Origin: an uncultured bacterium
Lineage (GTDB): Bacteria; Bacillota; Clostridia; Oscillospirales; Acutalibacteraceae
Direction: 5' to 3'
Assembly (NCBI GenBank): GCA_949293385.1
Contig: CASFDQ010000061.1
Coordinates: 1-32,338 of the forward strand
Length of the DNA: 32,338 bases
Of this stretch, positions 9,922 to 30,492 are shown one piece after another (the stretch's first letter is position 1; each line of letters starts with the position of its first letter). The notes below the pieces were generated by a model. That model did no database searches, was not told the origin of the DNA, and was given only the letters and a program-made list of their open reading frames with translations. Both the position numbers and the translations under genes were made by a program.

Positions 9922-9955
9922 AAATTGTTAAATGCTATATCAGCGAGGTGATACC

Positions 9956-11317
9956 GTGTCAGAAAGAACCGTTGCCGCTATCTCTACTCCGATAGGTGAG
10001 GGAGGAATAAGTCTTATTCGCGTTTCGGGACGGGACGCGATAGAAATATGCGATAAAATATTTAAATCGGTTTCGGGAAAAAGACTTGAAAGTCTTTCGG
10101 GCTATACCGCCCTTTTCGGCCATATTATGGGAGAAGACGGCCCTATAGACGAGGCGGTAGTCACCGTTTTTCGCGAGCCTAAAAGCTATACGGGGGAGGA
10201 CGTCTGTGAAATATCCTGTCACGGCGGCCGATACGTTACCGCTGCGGTTTTAGAAGCCGTCCTTTCGGCAGGCGCTATGGCCGCAGGCCCCGGCGAATTT
10301 ACCAAAAGAGCCTTCTTAAACGGAAAGCTTGACCTTGCCGAGGCCGAGAGCGTTATGGGTCTTATAAACGCCAAAAGCGGTCAGGAGCTTAAACTTCAGC
10401 TTGCCGCAAAAAAAGGCAGGACCTCGGAGGAAATTTCCGAAATTGAGGCTCTGCTTTTAGAGCTTTCGGCCGATTTTGCCGCATACAGTGACTATCCCGA
10501 CGAGGATCTTCCCGACCTGTCCGAGGATAATTTTTTAAGGCTTTTAAAGATCGCGTCAAGTAAGCTTGAGCGCCTTCTTTCTACCTACTATAGCGGAACG
10601 GTGCTCAGGGAGGGCGTAAAGACCGCCATCGTCGGAAAGCCCAACGTCGGGAAATCGACCCTTATGAATCTCCTTTCCCGCGAGACCCGTTCAATAGTTA
10701 CAGATATTGCGGGAACTACCCGTGATATTATCGAAAATACCGTAAAGGTAGGGGATCTGACCCTTATTCTTGCCGACACGGCAGGCATCCGCGCCTCCCT
10801 TGATCCCGTCGAGGAGCTTGGGGTAGAGCTTGCAAAAGATCGGATCGCCTCGTCACAGCTCGTTCTCGCGGTGTTCGATATTTCTTCGGGACTCGACGGT
10901 AACGACCGAGATATACTTTCCCTTTTATCAAAGGAAAATACCGTTATCGTGCTCAATAAATCCGACGTGGGAAAAGTCCTTGACGAGACGGCCTTCGAAG
11001 GCTTTAAGACGGTACTCGTTTCGGCCAAGGAGGGTATCGGAGCCGAAGAACTGGAAAGAGCCGTAGCCGATACGGTAGGTCAGGGAAATCTCGATCCCGA
11101 CGCCGCGATACTGTTAAACGAGAGGCAGTTTGATCTGGTAAGAAAAGCGGCCGCCGCCGTAAAGGAGGCCGAAAGTCTTCTGCTCTCGGGCTTTACAATA
11201 GACGCCGTAGGAGTTTGCGTCGACGATGCACTGACTCTTCTTTATACCCTCGACGGAAAAAGAGTAACAAATGAAGTAGCCGACGAGGTATTCCGACGCT
11301 TCTGCGTAGGCAAGTAA
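9956..11317 (+). CDS. mnmE: tRNA modification GTPase MnmE (TrmE)
   Basis: MnmE works with MnmG to place the (carboxymethyl)aminomethyl group at C5 of the wobble uridine in certain tRNAs, using a folate one-carbon unit and GTP hydrolysis. From GTG 9956 the protein has 453 residues, the normal length. The N-terminal folate-binding domain begins TVAAISTPIGEGGISLIRVSG. The inserted G domain shows Walker A GKPNVGKS (227-234), GTTRD (253-257), DTAG (274-277) and NKSD (334-337). The protein ends in CVGK, the conserved C-x-G-K tail with the functional cysteine (C450). The start is set by GAGGTGAT seven bases upstream; an in-frame ATG at 9932 would put that site inside the gene. First gene of mnmE-mnmG-rsmG. 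Confidence 0.97.
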   Translation: MSERTVAAISTPIGEGGISLIRVSGRDAIEICDKIFKSVSGKRLESLSGYTALFGHIMGEDGPIDEAVVTVFREPKSYTGEDVCEISCHGGRYVTAAVLEAVLSAGAMAAGPGEFTKRAFLNGKLDLAEAESVMGLINAKSGQELKLQLAAKKGRTSEEISEIEALLLELSADFAAYSDYPDEDLPDLSEDNFLRLLKIASSKLERLLSTYYSGTVLREGVKTAIVGKPNVGKSTLMNLLSRETRSIVTDIAGTTRDIIENTVKVGDLTLILADTAGIRASLDPVEELGVELAKDRIASSQLVLAVFDISSGLDGNDRDILSLLSKENTVIVLNKSDVGKVLDETAFEGFKTVLVSAKEGIGAEELERAVADTVGQGNLDPDAAILLNERQFDLVRKAAAAVKEAESLLLSGFTIDAVGVCVDDALTLLYTLDGKRVTNEVADEVFRRFCVGK

Positions 11318-11407
11318 GCTCGGCCTGATATTTTTCCGCAGAACGGCTTTTTGCTCGGGGCAAAGAATTTCTGTCGGTCTACATCTTACATAAAGGATGA
11401 TAAAATT

Positions 11408-13285
11408 TTGAACTATTTTGCAGGTAATTTCGACGTTGCCGTGATCGGCGCAGGTCACGCAGGCATAGAGGCCGCTCTTGCCGCCGCAAGACTAAACCAA
11501 AAAACGGTAATGTTCTGTATAAATCTCGATTCTGTCGGCAATATGCCCTGTAACCCCTCTATCGGAGGTACCGCAAAGGGTCATCTCGTCCGTGAGATAG
11601 ACGCTCTCGGCGGAGAGATGGGGGTTGCCGCCGATAAGACCACGCTGCAGAGCCGTATGCTGAATTTAGGCAAGGGCCCCGCGGTGCACTCTCTCCGTGC
11701 TCAGATCGACCGTAAGGCCTATACCGCCCTTATGAAGCATACCGTTGAGCTTCAGGAAAATCTTATTTTAAAGCAGGCCGAGGTTATTGATATGTACCCC
11801 GCCGAGGACGGCTGGCATCTCGTTACCCGACTTTCGGCCGAATACGTCTGCAAGACGGTAATCCTCGCAACGGGAACCTTCCTTGCGGGTAAAATTTTCG
11901 TCGGCGAAGCGGCCTATTCGGGAGGCCCCGACGGCCTTTTTGCCGCAGAGGGTCTGTCGGATGCCCTTAAAAGACTTGATATTCCCCTTCGTCGCTTTAA
12001 AACGGGAACCCCTGCCCGTGTCCTTAAAAGCTCTATCGACTTTTCCGAGCTTGAGGTTCAGCCGGGGGACGAGCGGATAATTCCCTTCTCCTATAAAACC
12101 GAAAAGCTTCCCGAAAATTCGGTGGTCTGTCACATAAGCTACACAAACGACAAGACCAAGCAGGTAATTCTCGATAATATTCACCGTTCCCCCCTCTATT
12201 CGGGAGTTATCGAGGGGGTAGGCCCCAGATACTGCCCCTCTATCGAGGACAAAATAATGCGCTTTGCCGACAAGAAGCGGCATCAGCTTTTTATCGAGCC
12301 CTGCGGAGCCGATACCGAGGAAATGTACCTTCAGGGTATGTCCTCCTCCCTCCCCGAAGAGGTTCAGATCGAAATTTATCACTCTATAAAGGGTCTCGAA
12401 AATGTGCAGATAATGCGCAACGCCTACGCGATAGAATACGACTGTGTCGACCCCCTTGCCCTTTCGGCTTCCCTCGAGTTTAAGGACCATTCGGGTCTTT
12501 ACGGCGCAGGACAGTTTAACGGCTCCTCGGGATATGAAGAGGCGGCGGCGCAGGGACTTGTTGCGGGAATAAACGCCGCGAGAAAGAATATGGGACTTTC
12601 TCCCCTTATCCTTTCCCGTGCCTCCTCCTATATCGGAACCCTTATCGACGACCTTGTAACCAAGGGCTGCTCCGACCCCTACCGTATGATGACCAGCCGA
12701 AGCGAATACCGCCTTCTTCTCCGTCAGGATAACGCCGACGAAAGACTTATGCCCAAAGGCTACGAGATCGGACTTATAGACGAGGAGACCTATAATAAAT
12801 TCCTTAAGAGAAAGGCTATGAAGGAGGAGGAGATATACCGCCTTCGTCATTCTACTATAGCTCCCGGCGAGAAGATAAACGAAATTCTCGAAAGGCTCGG
12901 TACGACTCCGCTTTCTACCGGAATAAAGCTGTCCGAGCTTATAAAGCGTCCCGATGTATCCTATTTCGACCTTGCCGAGGTGGATGTCTGCCGTCCGGAG
13001 CTTCCCTATGAGGTAGCTTTAAAGGCCGAGACCGAGATCAAGTACGAGGGCTATATCTCCCGTCAGCAGGCCCAGGTCGACGATATGCTGCGACTCGAAA
13101 ACCGAAGGCTTCCCGAGAATATCGACTATATGTCGGTGGAGGGTCTAAGGCTTGAGGCAAGAGAAAAGCTAAGTAAGATACGTCCCGAAAACATCGGGCA
13201 GGCCTCCCGTATATCGGGGGTAAGTCCCTCCGACGTAACGGTGCTTCTAATACTGACTCAGAAAAAAACGGAGGATAAAAATTGA
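11408..13285 (+). CDS. mnmG: tRNA uridine-5-carboxymethylaminomethyl modification enzyme MnmG (GidA)
   Basis: MnmG is the FAD- and NADH-dependent partner of MnmE in wobble-uridine modification. From TTG 11408 the protein has 625 residues, matching family length. The dinucleotide-binding motif GAGHAGIEAALAAAR begins at residue 14, the conserved GGTAKGHLVREIDALGGEMG lies at about 53-72, and FAGQ-type FAD contacts (GAGQFNGSSGYEEAAAQGL) occur in the C-terminal half. A longer in-frame start at 11351 would add 19 residues of unconserved sequence; AAGGATGAT just before TTG 11408 supports the shorter form. The stop codon overlaps the rsmG start by two bases. The 90-base gap after mnmE shows no clear promoter, so cotranscription is likely. 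Confidence 0.97.
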   Translation: MNYFAGNFDVAVIGAGHAGIEAALAAARLNQKTVMFCINLDSVGNMPCNPSIGGTAKGHLVREIDALGGEMGVAADKTTLQSRMLNLGKGPAVHSLRAQIDRKAYTALMKHTVELQENLILKQAEVIDMYPAEDGWHLVTRLSAEYVCKTVILATGTFLAGKIFVGEAAYSGGPDGLFAAEGLSDALKRLDIPLRRFKTGTPARVLKSSIDFSELEVQPGDERIIPFSYKTEKLPENSVVCHISYTNDKTKQVILDNIHRSPLYSGVIEGVGPRYCPSIEDKIMRFADKKRHQLFIEPCGADTEEMYLQGMSSSLPEEVQIEIYHSIKGLENVQIMRNAYAIEYDCVDPLALSASLEFKDHSGLYGAGQFNGSSGYEEAAAQGLVAGINAARKNMGLSPLILSRASSYIGTLIDDLVTKGCSDPYRMMTSRSEYRLLLRQDNADERLMPKGYEIGLIDEETYNKFLKRKAMKEEEIYRLRHSTIAPGEKINEILERLGTTPLSTGIKLSELIKRPDVSYFDLAEVDVCRPELPYEVALKAETEIKYEGYISRQQAQVDDMLRLENRRLPENIDYMSVEGLRLEAREKLSKIRPENIGQASRISGVSPSDVTVLLILTQKKTEDKN

Positions 13286-16150: not shown

Positions 16151-16180
16151 GTCGATGCCATAAAGAGAGGAGTGTTGACG

Positions 16181-17410
16181 ATGAATCAAAAGGTTTACAC
16201 AAGGCAATATTACATTGACAAAATCCGAGGATTTTACCACAGCGACCTAATTAAGGTTGTTACGGGTATCCGACGCTCAGGCAAATCGTTCTTTCTGCTT
16301 TCTGTTATGGAGGATCTAAAAAAATCGGGTGTAAAAGAAAAAGATATTATTTATCTTAATCTTGACAGGCGCGGTTACAGAAAGATTAAAACCCCCGATG
16401 CTTTAGAAGAAGCCATTGAAAAGCAAATCACAGATGATGATTTTAAATATCTGTTTATTGATGAAGTTCAAAATGTAGTTGGCTTTGAAGAAGTTGTTAA
16501 CGGTTTCAGAGAGGACGGAAACCTTTCTATCTTCATCACAGGCTCTAACTCTTATCTGTTAAGCGGTGAGCTTTCCACTAAACTCACAGGCCGATATATC
16601 GAAGTTGAAATGTTTACCCTTAACTTCCGTGAGTATTTGGAAATGAAAGCGTTCCTAGGTAAGGAAGTCAATGCTGACAAAACGACAGAATTTAACGAAT
16701 ATCTCCGTTTTGGAGGTTTCCCAAAAACACTTGAATTTGATGAAGCCGCAGACAAAGACACTTATATTGCCGATGTTATAAAGCAGATACTTGAAAAGGA
16801 TGTTATTAAGCATAAAAAAATCCGCAACCGTGCCGTGTTTGATAAAGTTATGACTTATGTCATCAATAACTTCGGCGCTACTGTTAGTCTTGGAAGTATT
16901 GCTGAATACTTTGATAAACAAGAGAATATCAAAATTCGCACCGAAACTCTTAACAATTATCTTAAAATACTTGAAAACGCTAAAATTATTTATGGGTGCC
17001 CACGCTTTGATATTAAGTCTAAAAAATCGCTTCGGGGCGAACAAAAATATTATCTTGCTGACCTTGGTATCTACTTTTCCCGCAACGTAGATACAAGAAT
17101 AAATTATGGTCCGGTGCTTGAAAACATCGTTTACACTTATCTTTATGCAAAGAATTATAAAATCAGCGTAGGAAGAATTGGTAAATTTGAATGTGATTTC
17201 ATCACACGCATTAATGATGAATACCGATACGTTCAGGTTGCTATGACAATTATGAGTGAAAACACAGAGGAGCGCGAATATAAACCGTTTACAATGATTC
17301 GTGACAACTATCCAAAATATCTGTTTACCATTGATACGCTCTTGCAAAAGCGTGATGGCGTAATACACAAAAATATCATTAATTTTATTTCTGAAAATGA
17401 AAATCTCTAA
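16181..17410 (+). CDS. AAA+ family ATPase with DUF4143-type C-terminal domain
   Basis: This 409-residue protein belongs to the large, poorly understood AAA_14/DUF4143 group. Walker A is GIRRSGKS (29-36), Walker B is LFIDEVQ (91-97), and the TGSNSYLLSGELSTKLTGR stretch (120-138) is the group's sensor/arginine region. The C-terminal half (about 200-400) includes a winged-helix-like section and a domain with YLADLGIYFS, a nuclease-like region that is often degenerate. Members are frequently found in mobile or variable regions; their role is unknown. The ATG at 16181 is favoured over GTG 16172 because GAGAGGAG then has normal spacing. AT-rich composition sets it apart from neighbours outside the inverted repeats. 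Confidence 0.88.
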   Translation: MNQKVYTRQYYIDKIRGFYHSDLIKVVTGIRRSGKSFFLLSVMEDLKKSGVKEKDIIYLNLDRRGYRKIKTPDALEEAIEKQITDDDFKYLFIDEVQNVVGFEEVVNGFREDGNLSIFITGSNSYLLSGELSTKLTGRYIEVEMFTLNFREYLEMKAFLGKEVNADKTTEFNEYLRFGGFPKTLEFDEAADKDTYIADVIKQILEKDVIKHKKIRNRAVFDKVMTYVINNFGATVSLGSIAEYFDKQENIKIRTETLNNYLKILENAKIIYGCPRFDIKSKKSLRGEQKYYLADLGIYFSRNVDTRINYGPVLENIVYTYLYAKNYKISVGRIGKFECDFITRINDEYRYVQVAMTIMSENTEEREYKPFTMIRDNYPKYLFTIDTLLQKRDGVIHKNIINFISENENL

Positions 17411-22643: not shown

Positions 22644-24562
22644 TATCGTATTTTGGAACCTGCGGGAACGCCGTCAAGGAATACTACCTTAACGTCCTCT
22701 TCGCCTGCTTCCGCCGCAAGGATCATTCCGCAGCTTTCAACTCCGCAAAGGGTTGCGGGCTTAAGATTCGAAACTAAGATGACCGTCTTTCCGATAAGCT
22801 CTTCGGGGGTATAATATTTAGCGATTCCCGAGGCTACGGTGCGGGGCCTTCCGCTTCCGTCGTCGAGGGTGAGCTTTAAAAGCTTCTTTGCCTTCCTGAC
22901 CGGCTCACATTCAAGGATCTTTGCCGCTTTTAGCTCTACCTTACAGAAATCTTCGATAGAAATTTCGGCAATAGTTGCAACGTTTTCTGCGGCCTCTTTA
23001 GCGGCCTTCTTTGCCTCTTCCTCGGCGGCTATCTCGGCAAGGACCTTCTCTGCGTCGATTCGGGCAAAGAGGGGAGAAGCCGTACCTACGGTGTAGGAGC
23101 CTTCGGTAAACTCGGTTCCGTCGGTGAACTTACCGATCTGCATACATATCTGTGCGGCTGCCTCAGGGATTATGGGAGCAAGGAGAACAGAAAGAATTCT
23201 GATGCACTCTAAAAGGTTAAAGAGAACGGCCTCGAGGTAGTCCTTCTTGCTTTCGTCCTTGGCAAGGGCCCAGGGCATAGTCTCGTCGATATACTTGTTA
23301 CAGCGCTTTGCAAGCTCCAAGACCGCGGTGCAGGCATCGGCGTTATGATAGGCGTCCATAGCCCTTTCGTAATCCTCTACACAGGCCTTTACGGTTGAGA
23401 GCAGGTCGGTATCACATTCGTTTTCGAACTTCTTGTAGGCGGCCGTTCCGCCGAAATACTTGTTGGTCATGGCAACAGTGCGATTTACAAGGTTGCCGTA
23501 GGTGTTGGCAAGGTCGGAATTAAACTTATTTATAAAGCTTTCGTAGGTTATAGAGCCGTCGTTTACGAAGGAGACCTCACTAAGAAGATAGTAGCGAACG
23601 GCGTCGGTGCCAAACCGGGCAGCAAGCTCGTCGGCATAAATGGTGTTGCCGCGGGACTTGCTCATCTTGTCCTCGCCTACAAGTACCCAAGGATGACCGA
23701 GTACCTGCTTGGGAAGGGGGAGATCTAAGGCCATAAGAATAATGGGCCAATAAATAGTATGGAAGCGGACGATATCCTTGCCGATAACGTGAAGGTCGGC
23801 GGGCCAGAGAGCCTCAAACTGCTCGGTGGAGCCCTTCGGGTTATAGCCGATGCCGGTTGCGTAGTTGGAAAGGGCGTCGATCCATACGTAGATAACGTGC
23901 TTCGGGTCGAATTCAACGGGAACGCCCCATTTAAAGGAGCTGCGTGACACGCAAAGGTCGGTAAGACCGGGCTTTAAGAAGTTATTTATCATCTCGTTTT
24001 TACGGGATTCGGGCTGAATAAACTCGGGATGCTCCTCGATATGCTTCATAAGGCGATCTTGATATTTTCCGAGCTTTAAGAAATAGGCCTCCTCCTTTGC
24101 ATCGGAAACCTCTCTGCCGCAGTCGGGACATTTGCCGTCTACGAGCTGACTGGGGGTGAAGAAGGACTCGCAGGGAACGCAGTATTTTCCCTCGTACTCG
24201 CTCTTATAGATATCGCCCTGCTCGTAAAGCTTCTTGAAGATTGCCGAAACGGCGGCCTCGTGGTCGGCGTCGGTGGTGCGGATGAACTTATCGTAGGTGG
24301 TGTTCATACTGTCCCAAACGGCCTTTATCTGCGCGGCGGCCTTATCTACGTACTCCTTGGGGGTGATGCCTGCGGCCTTTGCCTTTTCCTCGATCTTCTG
24401 ACCGTGCTCGTCCGAGCCGGTCATAAAGAAAACGTCGAAGCCCTGAGCGCGCTTATAGCGGGCTATCATATCGGCGAGAACGATATCGTAAGCGTTTCCG
24501 ATATGGGGCTTACTTGAAGCATAGGCAATAGCGGTCGTAATGTAAAATTTATTCTTGTTCAT
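22643..24562 (-). CDS. metG: Methionyl-tRNA synthetase
   Basis: This class I synthetase charges tRNA-Met for initiation and elongation. From ATG 24562 it has 639 residues. The HIGH motif is PHIGN (19-23) and KMSKS lies at 299-303. A zinc knuckle of four cysteines (C128, C131, C145, C148) marks the one-knuckle Gram-positive type. The C-terminal ~110 residues form the EMAP-II/Trbp111-like tRNA-binding and dimerisation domain (ISIEDFCKVELKAAKI to CGMILAAE), joined by an alanine/glutamate-rich helix. An in-frame TTG four codons upstream is possible but sits on the Shine-Dalgarno. The start overlaps the upstream gene by 14 bases, and no T-box leader is seen. Confidence 0.97.
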   Translation of the reverse strand: MNKNKFYITTAIAYASSKPHIGNAYDIVLADMIARYKRAQGFDVFFMTGSDEHGQKIEEKAKAAGITPKEYVDKAAAQIKAVWDSMNTTYDKFIRTTDADHEAAVSAIFKKLYEQGDIYKSEYEGKYCVPCESFFTPSQLVDGKCPDCGREVSDAKEEAYFLKLGKYQDRLMKHIEEHPEFIQPESRKNEMINNFLKPGLTDLCVSRSSFKWGVPVEFDPKHVIYVWIDALSNYATGIGYNPKGSTEQFEALWPADLHVIGKDIVRFHTIYWPIILMALDLPLPKQVLGHPWVLVGEDKMSKSRGNTIYADELAARFGTDAVRYYLLSEVSFVNDGSITYESFINKFNSDLANTYGNLVNRTVAMTNKYFGGTAAYKKFENECDTDLLSTVKACVEDYERAMDAYHNADACTAVLELAKRCNKYIDETMPWALAKDESKKDYLEAVLFNLLECIRILSVLLAPIIPEAAAQICMQIGKFTDGTEFTEGSYTVGTASPLFARIDAEKVLAEIAAEEEAKKAAKEAAENVATIAEISIEDFCKVELKAAKILECEPVRKAKKLLKLTLDDGSGRPRTVASGIAKYYTPEELIGKTVILVSNLKPATLCGVESCGMILAAEAGEEDVKVVFLDGVPAGSKIR

Positions 24563-25754
24563 TATCTTCACCAATCCTTTGGTTTTGTTCTTGTTCTTTA
24601 GCCTTTGCGACGCAGGCTAAAAGGCGTTTATGAAGGGCTCTTTCGTCTATTCCGACGCCGCCCATTATAAGAAGGGTAAGAAGACCGGTCTGTATCCACA
24701 TTGCCGTAAGGTCGGTGGTCATATGGATCATAATGGCCGCCGAAAGAGCTAAGATAAGGGTCGTGGCGGTATTGCTTCTGAGAAGCTCCTTACATTCGGA
24801 AACCTTACTGAAATAAGACCATAAAAGTATAAGAAGCATTACCGTACCGATTATTCCGAAGCTCAGAAGCGGCTCTATAGCGAAGTTGTGCGCGTGCTGA
24901 GTCTTGTAAACTATCTGACCGTCGCTTTCTAAGATGAAGCCCTGATTTCGGCAGTGAAAGAAGGTCAAAAAGCCGCGTCCGAAGAGGGGACTATGACGGA
25001 AAAGCTCCATACCGTCGTTCCAGATCTTTATTCGGCGCTCGGTACTTATATTCGATTCGGCAAGGCGCGGCATAAGCTCGGGTATGCAGTAGAGCATTAC
25101 AAGCATAAAGCATACCGCGAGTAAAAACATTGAAAGCATAAGGTGCTTGTGCTTTAAAATAAGAATCACGCATATCCCTACGAAGACCTCGGTAAAGGCG
25201 AAAAGACTTTCGCCCATAAACATTCCGACGGCGGCAAACACCGCACAGACGTAATAGATAAGAACGCCCTTTTTGTGTGAGGTGGCCTGAAATGCGCATA
25301 TAACGATGACCGCCGCAAGCATTGCGCAAAGGTAATTCTCGTTATAAAACCAAAGCATACAGCGCTTACCCGTTATAAGCCGCTCTATAACCGTTGCAAT
25401 TCCTATGGGGACGCCTGCATAGCAGCAGATATCGAGGCAGTTCTCGAAGCATTTTTCGGTAAAGGTGCTTCGAGCGTAGTAGCTTATGACTATCATAAGG
25501 AAGAGGGCTACCGAGCAGACGGCTCCCAAAAAGTTTCGGTTAAGGAGGGCTACCGTAAGGGTGTAAAGGATAAAGACGAAAAAGATTATCTTTCCCTTGT
25601 GGACGAAGATCTGCTTTCGGGTATTGGGACTTATAAGCAGATAAAGGCCGAGAACTATGATGACCGCCGCAGTAATGAGATAGTGAAGAAAAACGCTTAT
25701 AAAGGCGATGTACATAATTTTTTCCGGGGAAAGAAGCTTGGCCTTTTTAGTCAA
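24549..25754 (-). CDS. O-antigen ligase/polymerase-like membrane protein (Wzy_C domain)
   Basis: This 401-residue protein has about ten hydrophobic segments and the Wzy_C-type periplasmic/extracellular loop. The loop reads ERRIKIWNDGMELFRHSPLFGRGFLTF followed by the family HAHN motif (QHAHNFAIEPLLSFGIIGT). Members either transfer a glycan from a lipid carrier to an acceptor (WaaL type) or polymerise repeat units (Wzy type); in a Gram-positive host surface polysaccharide or wall-glycopolymer assembly is likely. The start is TTG 25754 with AGGTGAT five bases ahead. The C-terminus is hydrophilic (AKEQEQNQRIGEDNEQE) and overlaps the metG start. It follows the P-type-ATPase-like gene by 26 bases. 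Confidence 0.82.
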   Translation of the reverse strand: MTKKAKLLSPEKIMYIAFISVFLHYLITAAVIIVLGLYLLISPNTRKQIFVHKGKIIFFVFILYTLTVALLNRNFLGAVCSVALFLMIVISYYARSTFTEKCFENCLDICCYAGVPIGIATVIERLITGKRCMLWFYNENYLCAMLAAVIVICAFQATSHKKGVLIYYVCAVFAAVGMFMGESLFAFTEVFVGICVILILKHKHLMLSMFLLAVCFMLVMLYCIPELMPRLAESNISTERRIKIWNDGMELFRHSPLFGRGFLTFFHCRNQGFILESDGQIVYKTQHAHNFAIEPLLSFGIIGTVMLLILLWSYFSKVSECKELLRSNTATTLILALSAAIMIHMTTDLTAMWIQTGLLTLLIMGGVGIDERALHKRLLACVAKAKEQEQNQRIGEDNEQE

Positions 25755-25780: not shown

Positions 25781-28333
25781 CTATTTTCCGACGTAATATG
25801 CCGTCATGGAAACGACGAGGGACACGAGCTGACACATAGCGCAGACCGCCGAGTTCATAAGGGTAAGGGAGCCGTTTAAGGACATTCCCGCAAAGAGCAG
25901 GCAGATGACCACGGTGCAGATTATGTGCAGCGCGAATAAAACGTTCGAGAGGGTACGGAGACGTATGCTTCCCGAAATTATAGATAAGAAGCTGAGCGCG
26001 CTTCCTTTATGGAAGCCGTGAGCCGAGACCCTTTCCTTAAAGGAGGTGGCGTCGTGATACTTTTCGGCTCCGTTATGATCGAGGACTTTAACGATATCGG
26101 GATAAAGACCGAAATAATCGCAAAGCATCTGCTCGGTAATATTGGGGTCGCAGTTATCTATAAGAAGGGTTATTCCCTTATCGGCAAGTCGGCAAAGCTC
26201 CCGTTCAAGATCCTCGTTTACGGTATATTTTACCATAAGGAGGGCGCAGGCCCTCTGATCGCAGGCCACGTATACGGGGAAATATCCCTTATGAAGTATC
26301 TTTTTATCGACCTCAAGATCGGGGACGCGAACTCCGTGAGACTGCATAAGGGAGCGGTTTCCGATCATAATATGACTATCACCGACCCAGCCCGAAATAC
26401 CTAAGTTTTCTTCGTATTTGACCGTATCGGCCTCGGGGAGCTCGACCTCTCCCTCTAAGATCTTATTGAAGACCTGAAAAAGAGGACTGTTCATTTCCTT
26501 TGCCACGGCCGCGGCATAGGTGATGGTCTCGTCTAAGTTGTTGGCGCCGAGGGGGGACATATTAAAGAGCTTTATCGAGCCTCTCGGGAAAATATCCGCC
26601 GAGGATACTACGAGGGCGTTGATCTCCTCTATTCTTTCGGCCGAGTATCTTCCGCAAACGGCGGCTCTTACCTTTCTGAGTCGTTCGCTTACTCCCGCAA
26701 AGGGAAGCATATCCGCGATAAAGAGCGAGGGCGCCGCGGCAAGGGAGGAAACGACTGCGGCCGTAAGAAGAGCGAGGCCGAAGGAGGAGTAGCTTACTCC
26801 GACGCTGAGGGAGATAACGGCGGTTATTATAAGGGTAATGACCATAAATACGTTAAGCTTTCCGCCGCAGGGACGGTCGCTCATTGTATGACGGAGGAAA
26901 TTCTTTATCTCGTCGGTCTCGGTAGAGCCTGCGGTAAGGATCTCGCCCTGAATTACCGTACGGGCCATTGCGGCGTTTACAGCGGGGTCGTTTATAAGGG
27001 TAAGGGCGGTCTTGGATCTTCTCATAGCTACGAGCTTAAAGTTCGAAAAGATCGCGGAGGCTCTTTTATAGGAGCAGTAGTTATAACAAAGGAAGGAGAC
27101 CATAGGAACGACTACCGGCTCATAGGGGTAGCTTCCGCAGATTATGCTGAAGAGGAGATATACCGTCATAAGTGTTCCCGAAAGGGCTAACGGAAATTCA
27201 ATTTTTGTCTTGGAGGTAAAGGCGCTTCCAAAGGAGGCGAAGACCCCCATATTTATAAGCAGGGTAAGGAGGAAGCTTATAAGAGATATGCTTGCGGGTA
27301 GGACGGGATTTTGATAAATTCCTGCCATAAAGGGCATATGTACCGAAGCGGCAAGCAGGGTAAGAATAGCGGTTACGACGGTCTTAAGCTTAAAGGATAC
27401 CATATTGTACTTAAGCTCTCCGCCGACCCTTGTAATATCCTTCTTTCCCTTAAAGTCCTCGACCTCAACGGGAGGAGCGGCCTCGTTAAAGGTTTTAACG
27501 GTTACTGCCTTTTTACCTGAGGAGGAAGAGATATCGGTTACGTTTACGGGACGGGTATGACTTAAAATATTCTCGTATTCGGTTTTTATTTCTTCTTCGG
27601 GCCGAAGCTCGGGGATTATCCTCGTAGAGCCTATCTCGGGGGTGGAATTCATTCCGCCCTGCTCCGAATAGGTTGTGGTAACGTTTTCCTCGGCGATCTT
27701 ATCGGTCCTTCTTGCCGAAAAATCGTCGAAAAGGGTGTTGGTGATCTTGGGGATCTGCGCCGTATCGAACTTGGTGGCGGTGACGCCGACCTCGCCGATC
27801 TTTAGCGGCTTCTTTATAGAGGTCTCCTTAAGACGGAGCTTTACCGGCTTTTCCTCTTCGGCAGGCGGCTCGGCGATCGGCTTTCCCCCGATGCTCTGAA
27901 CCTCCGAGGGCTTAAGATTATACATTCGCGCGATCTTTTCGTTGGCCCTTTTCTCGGCCGACTCGATTATATCCTCAACGCTTTCCAGAGTATAGTCGGG
28001 CTTTTCCTCGGCGTAGCTATGACCCTCGTCGTCGTATATATAGGGCATACACTTGGCAAGAAGACTGCTGGTCCTCGGCTTTTTGGGCTTACAATCGGTC
28101 GCAGGCGCAGGCTCAGGCGTCTTTTCGTGAGCCGCAGGCCCTTCGTTCTGCTTTTCCTCTTCGGCGCCCTGACGAACGGTGCTTTTAACGCTGTTCCTAA
28201 GGGCCTCAAGGGGATTTATTGCCGAAAAATCGACGGGGACCGACTCCCTTTTTGCGGTGTTGGTCGCGGGATTTTCTTTATTAACTTCGTCTGTTCTGGC
28301 GTTTTCGTCTTTTTCCTGAAACAGTCGATCCAT
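25781..28333 (-). CDS. Degenerate P-type-ATPase-like membrane protein with long disordered N-terminus
   Basis: This 850-residue protein keeps the architecture of a P1B-type ATPase but none of its catalytic signatures. Residues 1-310 are charged, Pro/Glu/Lys-rich and probably disordered. Membrane segments lie at about 318-340, 345-370, 379-400, 404-422, 494-513 and 518-545, with two more near 795-816 and 824-846. The CPx ion-site region reads LAAAPSLF (531-538). The phosphorylation motif DKTGT is replaced by VVSSADIFPRG (575-585), TGE of the actuator domain is not found, TGDN is LIDNCDPN (724-731), and no GDGxND is present. The nucleotide-domain fold is still suggested by GWVGDSHIMIGNRSLM (648-663). 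It therefore should not pump ions by phosphorylation; a structural, sensing or partner role is more likely. Its start has AAAGGAAT upstream. Confidence 0.7.
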   Translation of the reverse strand: MDRLFQEKDENARTDEVNKENPATNTAKRESVPVDFSAINPLEALRNSVKSTVRQGAEEEKQNEGPAAHEKTPEPAPATDCKPKKPRTSSLLAKCMPYIYDDEGHSYAEEKPDYTLESVEDIIESAEKRANEKIARMYNLKPSEVQSIGGKPIAEPPAEEEKPVKLRLKETSIKKPLKIGEVGVTATKFDTAQIPKITNTLFDDFSARRTDKIAEENVTTTYSEQGGMNSTPEIGSTRIIPELRPEEEIKTEYENILSHTRPVNVTDISSSSGKKAVTVKTFNEAAPPVEVEDFKGKKDITRVGGELKYNMVSFKLKTVVTAILTLLAASVHMPFMAGIYQNPVLPASISLISFLLTLLINMGVFASFGSAFTSKTKIEFPLALSGTLMTVYLLFSIICGSYPYEPVVVPMVSFLCYNYCSYKRASAIFSNFKLVAMRRSKTALTLINDPAVNAAMARTVIQGEILTAGSTETDEIKNFLRHTMSDRPCGGKLNVFMVITLIITAVISLSVGVSYSSFGLALLTAAVVSSLAAAPSLFIADMLPFAGVSERLRKVRAAVCGRYSAERIEEINALVVSSADIFPRGSIKLFNMSPLGANNLDETITYAAAVAKEMNSPLFQVFNKILEGEVELPEADTVKYEENLGISGWVGDSHIMIGNRSLMQSHGVRVPDLEVDKKILHKGYFPVYVACDQRACALLMVKYTVNEDLERELCRLADKGITLLIDNCDPNITEQMLCDYFGLYPDIVKVLDHNGAEKYHDATSFKERVSAHGFHKGSALSFLSIISGSIRLRTLSNVLFALHIICTVVICLLFAGMSLNGSLTLMNSAVCAMCQLVSLVVSMTAYYVGK

Positions 28334-28353: not shown

Positions 28354-29118
28354 TTACTTGCCCGAGCGGGAGCGTACTACGGCGTACATAAGTATACCTG
28401 CCGCTACCGAGGCGTTAAGAGAATTTATCTTTCCGAACATGGGAAGGCTGATTATTCCGTCACATTTTTGCGCAACGAGCCGTCCTATGCCCTTTCCTTC
28501 GTTTCCTATAACGATGGCGCAGGGGGAGGTGAAGTCGGTTCTGCTGTAGTCTTCGCCGTCCATATCGGCCCCGAATACCCAGACTCCCTGCTCCTTGAGC
28601 TTATCGATCTCGTTTGCGATGTTGGTTACCCTCGCTACTCTCATATATTCGAGGGCGCCGCTGGCCGATTTGGCAACCGTAACGTTAAGACTTGCACTGC
28701 GTCTTTTCGGGATAATGATTCCGTGGGCACCTGCGGCCTCGGCGGTGCGGATGATGGCTCCAAGGTTATGAGGGTCCTCTATCTCGTCGCAGATTATTAT
28801 AAAAGGGGCTTCGTTGCGTTCCTTGGCAAGGTCTAAAATATCGCTTACCTCGTAGTATTTCTGGGTCGCGATCATTACGGCGATACCCTGATGATTGGCG
28901 CCGTCGGTCAGATAATCGAGCTTCTGGGGGGAGACCTCCTTTATGAGTATCCCGCGCTCACTGCATTTGGCGATAACGGGTGCGGCCCAACCGCCGGTCA
29001 TACCGTGAGCAATAAGCAGGCGGTCGATCTCTCTGCCCGACTTTACGGCCTCGATCACGGGGTTTCGTCCTGCGATAATATCGTTTCCTTGTTCTTTAAC
29101 CTTTTCGTTTTCAGGCAT
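28354..29118 (-). CDS. rlmB: TrmH/SpoU-family 23S rRNA 2'-O-methyltransferase (RlmB-like)
   Basis: This 254-residue SPOUT enzyme probably makes 2'-O-methylguanosine at position 2251 in 23S rRNA. The substrate-binding N-terminal domain begins IIAGRNPVIEAVKSGREIDRLLIA. The trefoil-knot motifs are all present: motif 1 DPHNLGAIIRTAEAAGAHGIIIP, motif 2 IVIGNEGKGIGRLV, and motif 3 SLPMFGKINSLNASVAAGILMY. ATG 29118 is chosen because GGAGGAAGG lies nine bases ahead; an in-frame upstream start at 29145 would bury it. It is the first gene of the minus-strand run that continues into the P-type-ATPase-like gene 20 bases later. Some relatives modify tRNA, so the exact target is inferred. Confidence 0.93.
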   Translation of the reverse strand: MPENEKVKEQGNDIIAGRNPVIEAVKSGREIDRLLIAHGMTGGWAAPVIAKCSERGILIKEVSPQKLDYLTDGANHQGIAVMIATQKYYEVSDILDLAKERNEAPFIIICDEIEDPHNLGAIIRTAEAAGAHGIIIPKRRSASLNVTVAKSASGALEYMRVARVTNIANEIDKLKEQGVWVFGADMDGEDYSRTDFTSPCAIVIGNEGKGIGRLVAQKCDGIISLPMFGKINSLNASVAAGILMYAVVRSRSGK

Positions 29119-29160
29119 TCGGACCTTCCTCCAAAATGATAACATAAATATACAAAGTAT

Positions 29161-29206: not shown

Positions 29207-29253
29207 TAAATAATAATATAATGGCTAAAATATGGAAGAAAGGACTGATTTTT

Positions 29254-30492
29254 ATGAGCAAAATAATTTCTGTAAAGGGCTACGAGCTTTTCGATTCAAG
29301 GGGTAACCCTACCGTAGGGGCAAGGGTGGAGACCGATTCGGGAGCGGTAGGCTTTTCGGTGGTTCCTTCGGGGGCTTCTACGGGAAAATACGAGGCGGTG
29401 GAGCTTCGTGACGGCGGAAAGAGACTCTGCGGTAAAGGGGTACGGCTTGCGGTTGAGAATATAAACAGCCTCATTGCTCCTACCCTTATCGGTATGGACA
29501 TTTCGGTTCCCGAAAAGGCCGACAAGGCTATGCTGGAGCTTGACGGAACCGAGGATAAAAGACGTCTCGGCGCAAACGCCGTGCTTGCCGTATCGGTGGC
29601 TCTCTATAAGGCGGCGGCAAAGGATAAGGGGGTGCCGCTATACCGCTGGTTTGCGGGAGAATACGGGGAAATTACTATGCCGAAGCCGATGATGAATATT
29701 TTAAACGGCGGCGCTCACGCCCTTAATAACATCGATATTCAGGAGTTTATGATAAAGCCGATGGTCGCCTCGTCCTTCTCCGAGAGTATGGAGATTTGTG
29801 CTGAAATTTACCATACCCTTAAAAAGCTTCTGATTGAAAAGGGAAGGGCTACTGCGGTAGGCGACGAGGGCGGCTTTGCTCCCGATCTTTCGGGTAACGA
29901 GGAGGCTATCGAGCTTATAGTCGAAGCCATAGAAAAGGCGGGCTACTCTACCGACAGGGTAAAGCTTTGTCTCGACGTTGCGGCAAGCGAATGGGCCGAA
30001 GGAAACGGATATTTTCTTCCTAAATCGAAGAAAAGATTTACTCGGGACGAGCTTATTTCCTACCTTTGCGAGCTTTCAAGAAAATATCCGATATGCTCTA
30101 TCGAGGACGGACTTTCCGAAGAGGATCTCGAAGGCACGGCAGAGCTTACGAAGAGGCTTGGAGACGCGGTCCAGATCGTTGGTGACGACCTCTTTGTAAC
30201 GAATAAAAAACGTCTGCAGGGTGGTATCGAAGCAGGAGCGGCCAATGCGATACTGATAAAGCCTAATCAGATAGGCTCGGTAAGCGAGACACTGGAGGTC
30301 ATCCGTCTTGCCAAAGAAAAGGGCTATAAAACGGTTATCTCTCACCGCTCGGGCGACACCGAGGATACCTTTATCGCCGACCTTGCGGCAGGTATGTCGG
30401 CGGGGCAGATAAAGACCGGCGCTCCCTGCAGAAGCGAGCGTACCGCAAAATATAACCGACTTCTTTTTATCGAGCAGGAAAATTTAGGCTAA
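29254..30492 (+). CDS. eno: Enolase
   Basis: Enolase converts 2-phosphoglycerate to phosphoenolpyruvate in glycolysis. From ATG 29254 the protein has 412 residues and opens MSKIISVKGYELFDSRGNPT, the family start. Catalytic residues are in place: E205 in GDEGGFAPDL, the metal ligands D241, E284 (SIEDG) and D311 (VGDDLF), K336 (LIKPNQIG), H364 (SHRSGDTEDTF) and K387. The C-terminus stops soon after YNRLLFIEQENLG, about 15-20 residues shorter than typical bacterial enolases, but the active site is unaffected. The in-frame ATG at 29221 would add 11 residues and bury the AAAGGA ribosome-binding site, so it is rejected. Monocistronic by context, with its own promoter. Confidence 0.95.
   Translation: MSKIISVKGYELFDSRGNPTVGARVETDSGAVGFSVVPSGASTGKYEAVELRDGGKRLCGKGVRLAVENINSLIAPTLIGMDISVPEKADKAMLELDGTEDKRRLGANAVLAVSVALYKAAAKDKGVPLYRWFAGEYGEITMPKPMMNILNGGAHALNNIDIQEFMIKPMVASSFSESMEICAEIYHTLKKLLIEKGRATAVGDEGGFAPDLSGNEEAIELIVEAIEKAGYSTDRVKLCLDVAASEWAEGNGYFLPKSKKRFTRDELISYLCELSRKYPICSIEDGLSEEDLEGTAELTKRLGDAVQIVGDDLFVTNKKRLQGGIEAGAANAILIKPNQIGSVSETLEVIRLAKEKGYKTVISHRSGDTEDTFIADLAAGMSAGQIKTGAPCRSERTAKYNRLLFIEQENLG

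Follow-up and report, generated by a model that had tools for sequence, protein, structure and literature searches.

Few enzyme superfamilies have been studied as thoroughly as the P-type ATPases. The protein described here is closest to the CopA-type copper P1B ATPases (LpCopA, PDB 3rfu and 4bbj; ATP7B), which it resembles in eight-helix topology, in the folds of the P and N domains and in sequence. Unlike these pumps, it lacks the catalytic, nucleotide-contact and metal-ligand motifs, its A domain is halved, its GDGxND loop is deleted, and a long disordered tail takes the place of their heavy-metal-binding domains. Its P domain derives from the fold of the HAD-superfamily hydrolases (PF00702), and differs from these enzymes, as from P-type ATPases, in that catalytic motifs are lost or altered. 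We found no bacterial pseudo-P-type ATPase in the literature searched, and the family of catalytically dead P1B-type ATPases presented below, which is specific to one order, is apparently undescribed. The closest known case is a degenerate P4-ATPase-like domain found in apicomplexan guanylate cyclases, most of all in PfGC-beta (PMC6592433). However, PfGC-beta is eukaryotic, of the P4 type and fused to cyclase domains, whereas the protein considered here is bacterial, of the P1B type, free-standing and near-universal in one order.

The gene was identified in a stretch of 32,338 nucleotides from a member of the Oscillospirales (hereafter, the window). It lies on the minus strand (positions 25781..28333), where open reading frame analysis, relatives and profile search place it, and has an ATG start and an uninterrupted frame of 850 codons, as an earlier note made from the sequence alone had read it. 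It forms part of a tight same-strand run that consists of rlmB, the pseudo-P1B-ATPase gene, a Wzy_C O-antigen-ligase-like gene, and genes for methionyl-tRNA synthetase (by Pfam content), a TatD-family protein and a family-2 glycosyltransferase. The rlmB gene, for the 23S rRNA G2251 2'-O-methyltransferase (28354..29145, minus strand; TIGR00186, 3.2e-74), is directly upstream across a 20-bp gap, and the Wzy_C gene (24549..25754, minus strand; PF04932, 1.5e-15) is downstream across a 26-bp gap. An enolase-like ORF (by reading; 29221-30492) is divergent from rlmB and is kept there in the genus. Elsewhere in the window, ParA/ParB genes are followed by MnmE/MnmG (198-1807 and 9932-13285), which is typical of a replication-origin region; seryl-tRNA synthetase and glycoside hydrolases (GH16-like, GH95) are encoded between them. 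Positions 16172-17410 encode a protein in which AAA_14 and DUF4143 domains are combined.

A phmmer search against the PDB matched residues 498-752 of the window protein to LpCopA (3rfu, E=3e-11) and also recovered the CopA P/N-domain construct 3a1e (E 1.1e-5). The ungapped alignment pairs LVVDKTGTLTEG of LpCopA with LVVSSADIFPRG of the window protein. The NCBIfam CopA model covers residues 497-761 (E=1.9e-14), with a score far below the model cut-off. The Pfam search of the window protein gave no match up to E 1, and no Pfam or NCBIfam model specific to the pseudo-ATPase family was reached by it; four of 55 family members have weak PF00702 matches (best 1.5e-4). For the core (residues 305-850), structure prediction on an alignment of 55 relatives gave a model with a mean pLDDT of 91.6 and a pTM of 0.87. 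It consists of eight membrane helices, with M4 broken at a conserved proline, together with the N and P domains and a little beta structure left over from the A domain. The top PDB matches in Foldseek are copper P1B ATPases (4bbj, 1.2e-17), and VIA-align superimposes the core on LpCopA with Z 22.5 over 476 residues that span the whole core (rmsd 8.3 over the multi-domain molecule). As judged from sequence and model, the protein is a member of the P-type ATPase superfamily in both ancestry and fold, given the homology of M3-M4 and of the P and N domains and the eight-helix layout. The earlier note's suggestion that the membrane layout and nucleotide-domain outline of a P1B ATPase are kept thus holds. 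Chance resemblance and an unrelated fold were considered, and are ruled out by the phmmer homology, Foldseek and VIA-align.

Catalytic positions were compared in a joint alignment of the window protein and 55 relatives with 19 intact ATPases, namely 18 ORFs from class-sample genomes outside the order and one paralogue (L002) from the window's own genome. The protein parts are all on the minus strand. Following the N-terminal tail are the first four transmembrane helices (MA, MB, M1 and M2; residues 305-440, 27014..27421) in the predicted core, and a reduced A domain (residues 441-492, 26858..27013) in which Q-G-E stands at T-G-E, so that GE is still present. The family median for the A domain is 53 residues, compared with 115 in intact pumps. 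M3 and M4 (residues 493-556, 26666..26857), assigned from the model and alignment, have A-A-P in place of the C-P-C metal ligands of M4. At the position of DKTGT[LI]T, the window protein has SSADIFP (residues 577-583, 26585..26605; family consensus [DST]xx[DE][LI]FP), with Ser where the phosphorylated Asp would be. The N domain (residues 587-704, 26222..26575) is full length, at 119 residues in the family as in the pumps, and is where the family is best conserved (G645, G658, Y703), with Ser at the HP histidine. The second part of the P domain (residues 705-778, 26000..26221) has 74 residues versus 106 in intact pumps, and the GDGxND loop is deleted from it. Here DPNIT (residues 729-733, 26135..26149) stands for TGD(N/S)xxTA, and N-C-D aligned to T-G-D leaves the D in place. 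M5 and M6 (residues 779-850, 25784..25999) complete the predicted core.

Most of these losses are shared by the relatives. The Lys that follows the phosphorylated Asp is found in 0/55 and K-T-G-T in none; the Gly of DKTGT is likewise absent from all 55, with Asp or Glu there in 48, and the last Thr of the motif is mostly replaced by Pro (39/55). At the TGE position T is rarely kept, G is present in 34 and E or D in 35. Both Cys of CPC are mostly lost, and Pro is kept in 37. The HP histidine is found in 0/55, and the first Gly of GxG is kept in 12 (lost in 43), the second (G645) in 54. The D of TGD is kept in 53/55, and GDGxND is deleted in 55/55. New family-specific positions are [DE][LI]FP, G658 (invariant), Y703 (98%), D729 (96-97%) and N731 (83-86%). 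The phosphorylation-site Asp itself is kept in 20/55 relatives, e.g., L017 and L024 (VVFDSSDIF); in the tree, most of these Asp-keeping sequences fall together within a single region of the window's family. Neither DKTGT nor GDGxND occurs in any of the orthologous ORFs listed, including the close homologues at this locus. The earlier note, which had drawn attention to VVSSADIFP and LIDNCDPN and had reported DKTGT, TGE, TGDN, GDGxND and CPx as missing or replaced, is upheld by the alignment, except that GE of TGE and D of TGD remain. On its sequence, the window protein would not be a P1B ATPase enzyme, as it lacks an intact form of the DKTGT Asp, TGE, TGD with GDGxND, and CPx with HP. For the family, these substitutions bring pseudo-enzyme status close to demonstration, and phosphorylation need not have been lost in every member, since 20 of the 55 retain the Asp.

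The N-terminal cytoplasmic tail (residues 1-304, 27422..28333) has no CxxC of an N-terminal heavy-metal-binding domain, by reading, and is mostly disordered in the full-length model (pLDDT mostly 33-56 to residue ~290). Low confidence applies to all of its ~300 residues apart from two predicted helices, at residues 41-61 (28151..28213) and 116-137 (27923..27988), in agreement with the ~310-residue disordered cytoplasmic extension proposed previously. Tail length varies in the family from about 70 to 630 residues. The second helix, LESVEDIIESAEKRANEKIARM, is predicted with pLDDT 82-86 and lies in the stretch of the tail that is best conserved within the genus. It is the proposed counterpart of a FSLDDILAEF-type motif found in other families. 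The motif pattern [FYWL][STADN][LIVMF][DE][DE][IL][LIDM] occurs near the N terminus in 12/55 tails, compared with 0.1 expected from shuffles. A strict DNA pattern of the motif gave 27 matches in 325 genomes of the order versus one for the reversed control; 19 of the 27 are in the pseudo-ATPase family by HMM and two more by reading. The window motif, YTLESVEDIIES, departs from the strict consensus, and we propose its equation with the FSLDDILAEF type after the fact; the segment taken to be the counterpart, also post hoc, is YTLESVEDIIESAEKRA. Rare extra copies occur on disordered tails of two other proteins named by reading, an LspA-like protein (L183), with EYSLEDILAEF at the C-terminal tail end, and an ABC-2-type export permease (L198), with FSIDDILAEI at the N terminus. 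It is possible that these proteins and the pseudo-ATPase share a docking partner in the order. Most other matches outside the family were treated as chance, as they are in globular proteins (by reading EF-Ts, Phe-tRNA synthetase beta chain, RecF-like and UbiB-like).

The gene was found in 56 of 60 related genomes searched. A wider survey with a profile of the core, in 198 Oscillospirales genomes that are each at least 95% complete, gave exactly one match per genome in 193. The five order genomes without a strong match were searched again, and at nine of ten loci the top-ranking ORF encodes a conventional ATPase that has DKTGT; thus, the gene is missing from these genomes, falls in an assembly gap or is present as a very divergent copy. 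In a sample of the class, 12 genomes of the order give full-length matches at E 1e-93 or better. Outside the order the best match is 3.5e-41 and, among the matches listed, only the P/N region is covered; the 18 ORFs examined there, and paralogue L002, all have DKTGT and GDGxND. Only two of 149 genomes in a phylum sample match at 1e-50, and both are in the window's order. Thus, no full-length pseudo-ATPase match was found outside the order in the sampled class and phylum. The 19 intact ATPases fall on one side of a long branch in the tree (length 2.28, support 100/100), where long branches prevent firm rooting.

The reading frames of relatives are almost always free of stops. For one close pair (L037/L038), ratios calculated from dN and dS are 0.107 for the whole gene, 0.067 for the core and 0.155 for the tail. 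The whole-gene value from this pair, together with the stop-free frames, indicates that the gene is maintained. We conclude, from sequence comparison, that it is retained as a single copy under purifying selection across the order. A pseudogene or sequencing artefact is ruled out by near-universal intact frames, one copy per genome and dN/dS of 0.11. The same observations, and the lack of a DKTGT homologue at the locus, bear out the idea in the earlier note that a non-pump function is maintained.

The gene neighbourhood was examined in the 56 genomes. The rlmB gene is the immediate upstream neighbour, in the same orientation, in 52 of these genomes, drawn from about two dozen families; of the four exceptions, two lie at contig ends, so the pairing holds in 52 of 54 testable genomes. 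The gene downstream of the pseudo-ATPase varies among relatives. An elongation-factor-G-like gene (by reading, ~690 residues) is directly downstream in seven genomes from several families (L081, L085, L092, L099, L108, L114 and L117), and rlmB, the pseudo-ATPase and a translation factor may represent an old gene order. All ten genomes examined from the window's genus have the Wzy_C gene downstream, as does just one genome outside it. This result bears on a role in envelope glycan assembly, as suggested in the earlier note from the O-antigen-ligase neighbour. The constant pairing within the genus, the short gap and shared strand, and the occurrence of a related tail motif in two other genomes, on an LspA and on an ABC-2-type export permease, are in keeping with such a role, but almost the whole of the rest of the order has no Wzy_C gene beside the pseudo-ATPase gene. 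The link rests on a genus-level neighbour and so does not generalize; the conserved partner is rlmB. Partnership with Wzy_C as a general function is ruled out by the neighbourhood comparison, and we consider it highly improbable that the pseudo-ATPase is part of glycan assembly with this neighbour.

Conservation was scored in alignment columns among relatives outside the window's genus. Columns above 2 bits make up 36 of 118 in the N domain and 19 of 271 in the membrane helices (8/135, 5/64 and 6/72 in the three segments), for which by-domain conservation of the intact pumps is a weak control, with three sequences alone diverse enough. The concentration of constraint in the N domain argues for a function in the cytosolic head and against substrate transport through the membrane part. 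With modest confidence, we favor the reading that the protein is a catalytically dead CopA-like pump turned membrane-anchored scaffold. Sequence comparison shows that a CopA-like pump has lost DKTGT, TGE with half of the A domain, part of TGD and the GDGxND loop, as well as the CPC metal ligands of M4 and nucleotide contacts (the HP histidine, and in GxG the first Gly). What it retains is the membrane part, with all eight helices, and an N domain of full length, in a gene that is found beside rlmB once per genome. As predicted from sequence, there would be neither ion pumping nor ATP hydrolysis. The N/P head may instead offer a surface to which proteins bind, and through its short helical FSLDDILAEF-type motifs the disordered cytosolic tail may recruit or tether cytosolic partners to the membrane. 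This is the simplest account of a protein that has shed its catalytic parts, conserves the motifs of head and tail and merely maintains its membrane part.

A scaffold role, which we infer, fits these observations, and the idea of a sensor is its leading rival; conservation of the N domain could equally mean ligand binding. The head might bind a nucleotide or small molecule in a non-canonical way and signal to the tail or membrane helices. The full-length N domain, the retention of G645 and G658 and the new near-invariant Y703, D729 and N731 in the head are as expected for a sensor, but the histidine that contacts ATP is gone from every relative and the first Gly of GxG from most, and we regard this alternative as unlikely. 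Genuine P-type ATPases, such as the intact L002 in the window's genome, are also encoded in other genomes of the order, so there are candidates for a pump that the protein could regulate as a partner subunit, e.g., in a hetero-oligomer. However, no P-type pump is seen as a recurrent neighbour, given the variable downstream gene and rlmB upstream, and such a partnership seems quite unlikely. A degraded transporter or hydrolase that is still active, via the Asp kept in some relatives, or a passive channel, would draw on that Asp and on the widely retained D of TGD. Against this are the Ser of the window protein, the absence of Lys, Thr and Gly of DKTGT and of the GDGxND loop, the lost metal ligands and the membrane helices, which are the least conserved part; we regard this reading as very unlikely. 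An extension of the preferred scaffold reading, which we offer as doubtful, is that this order-wide core protein is a membrane docking hub, in which the tail motif, also present on the LspA and ABC-2-type permease, binds one shared cytosolic partner that organizes envelope proteins.

A free-standing dead branch of the P-type ATPases that a whole bacterial order carries as a single-copy core gene has no parallel in the literature searched. Pseudokinases would have in it a bacterial counterpart, with the fold of a pump put to new use as a platform that has no enzymatic role. Near-universal in one gut order and found nowhere else in the samples, the gene is a lineage marker and a candidate for a conserved cell function.
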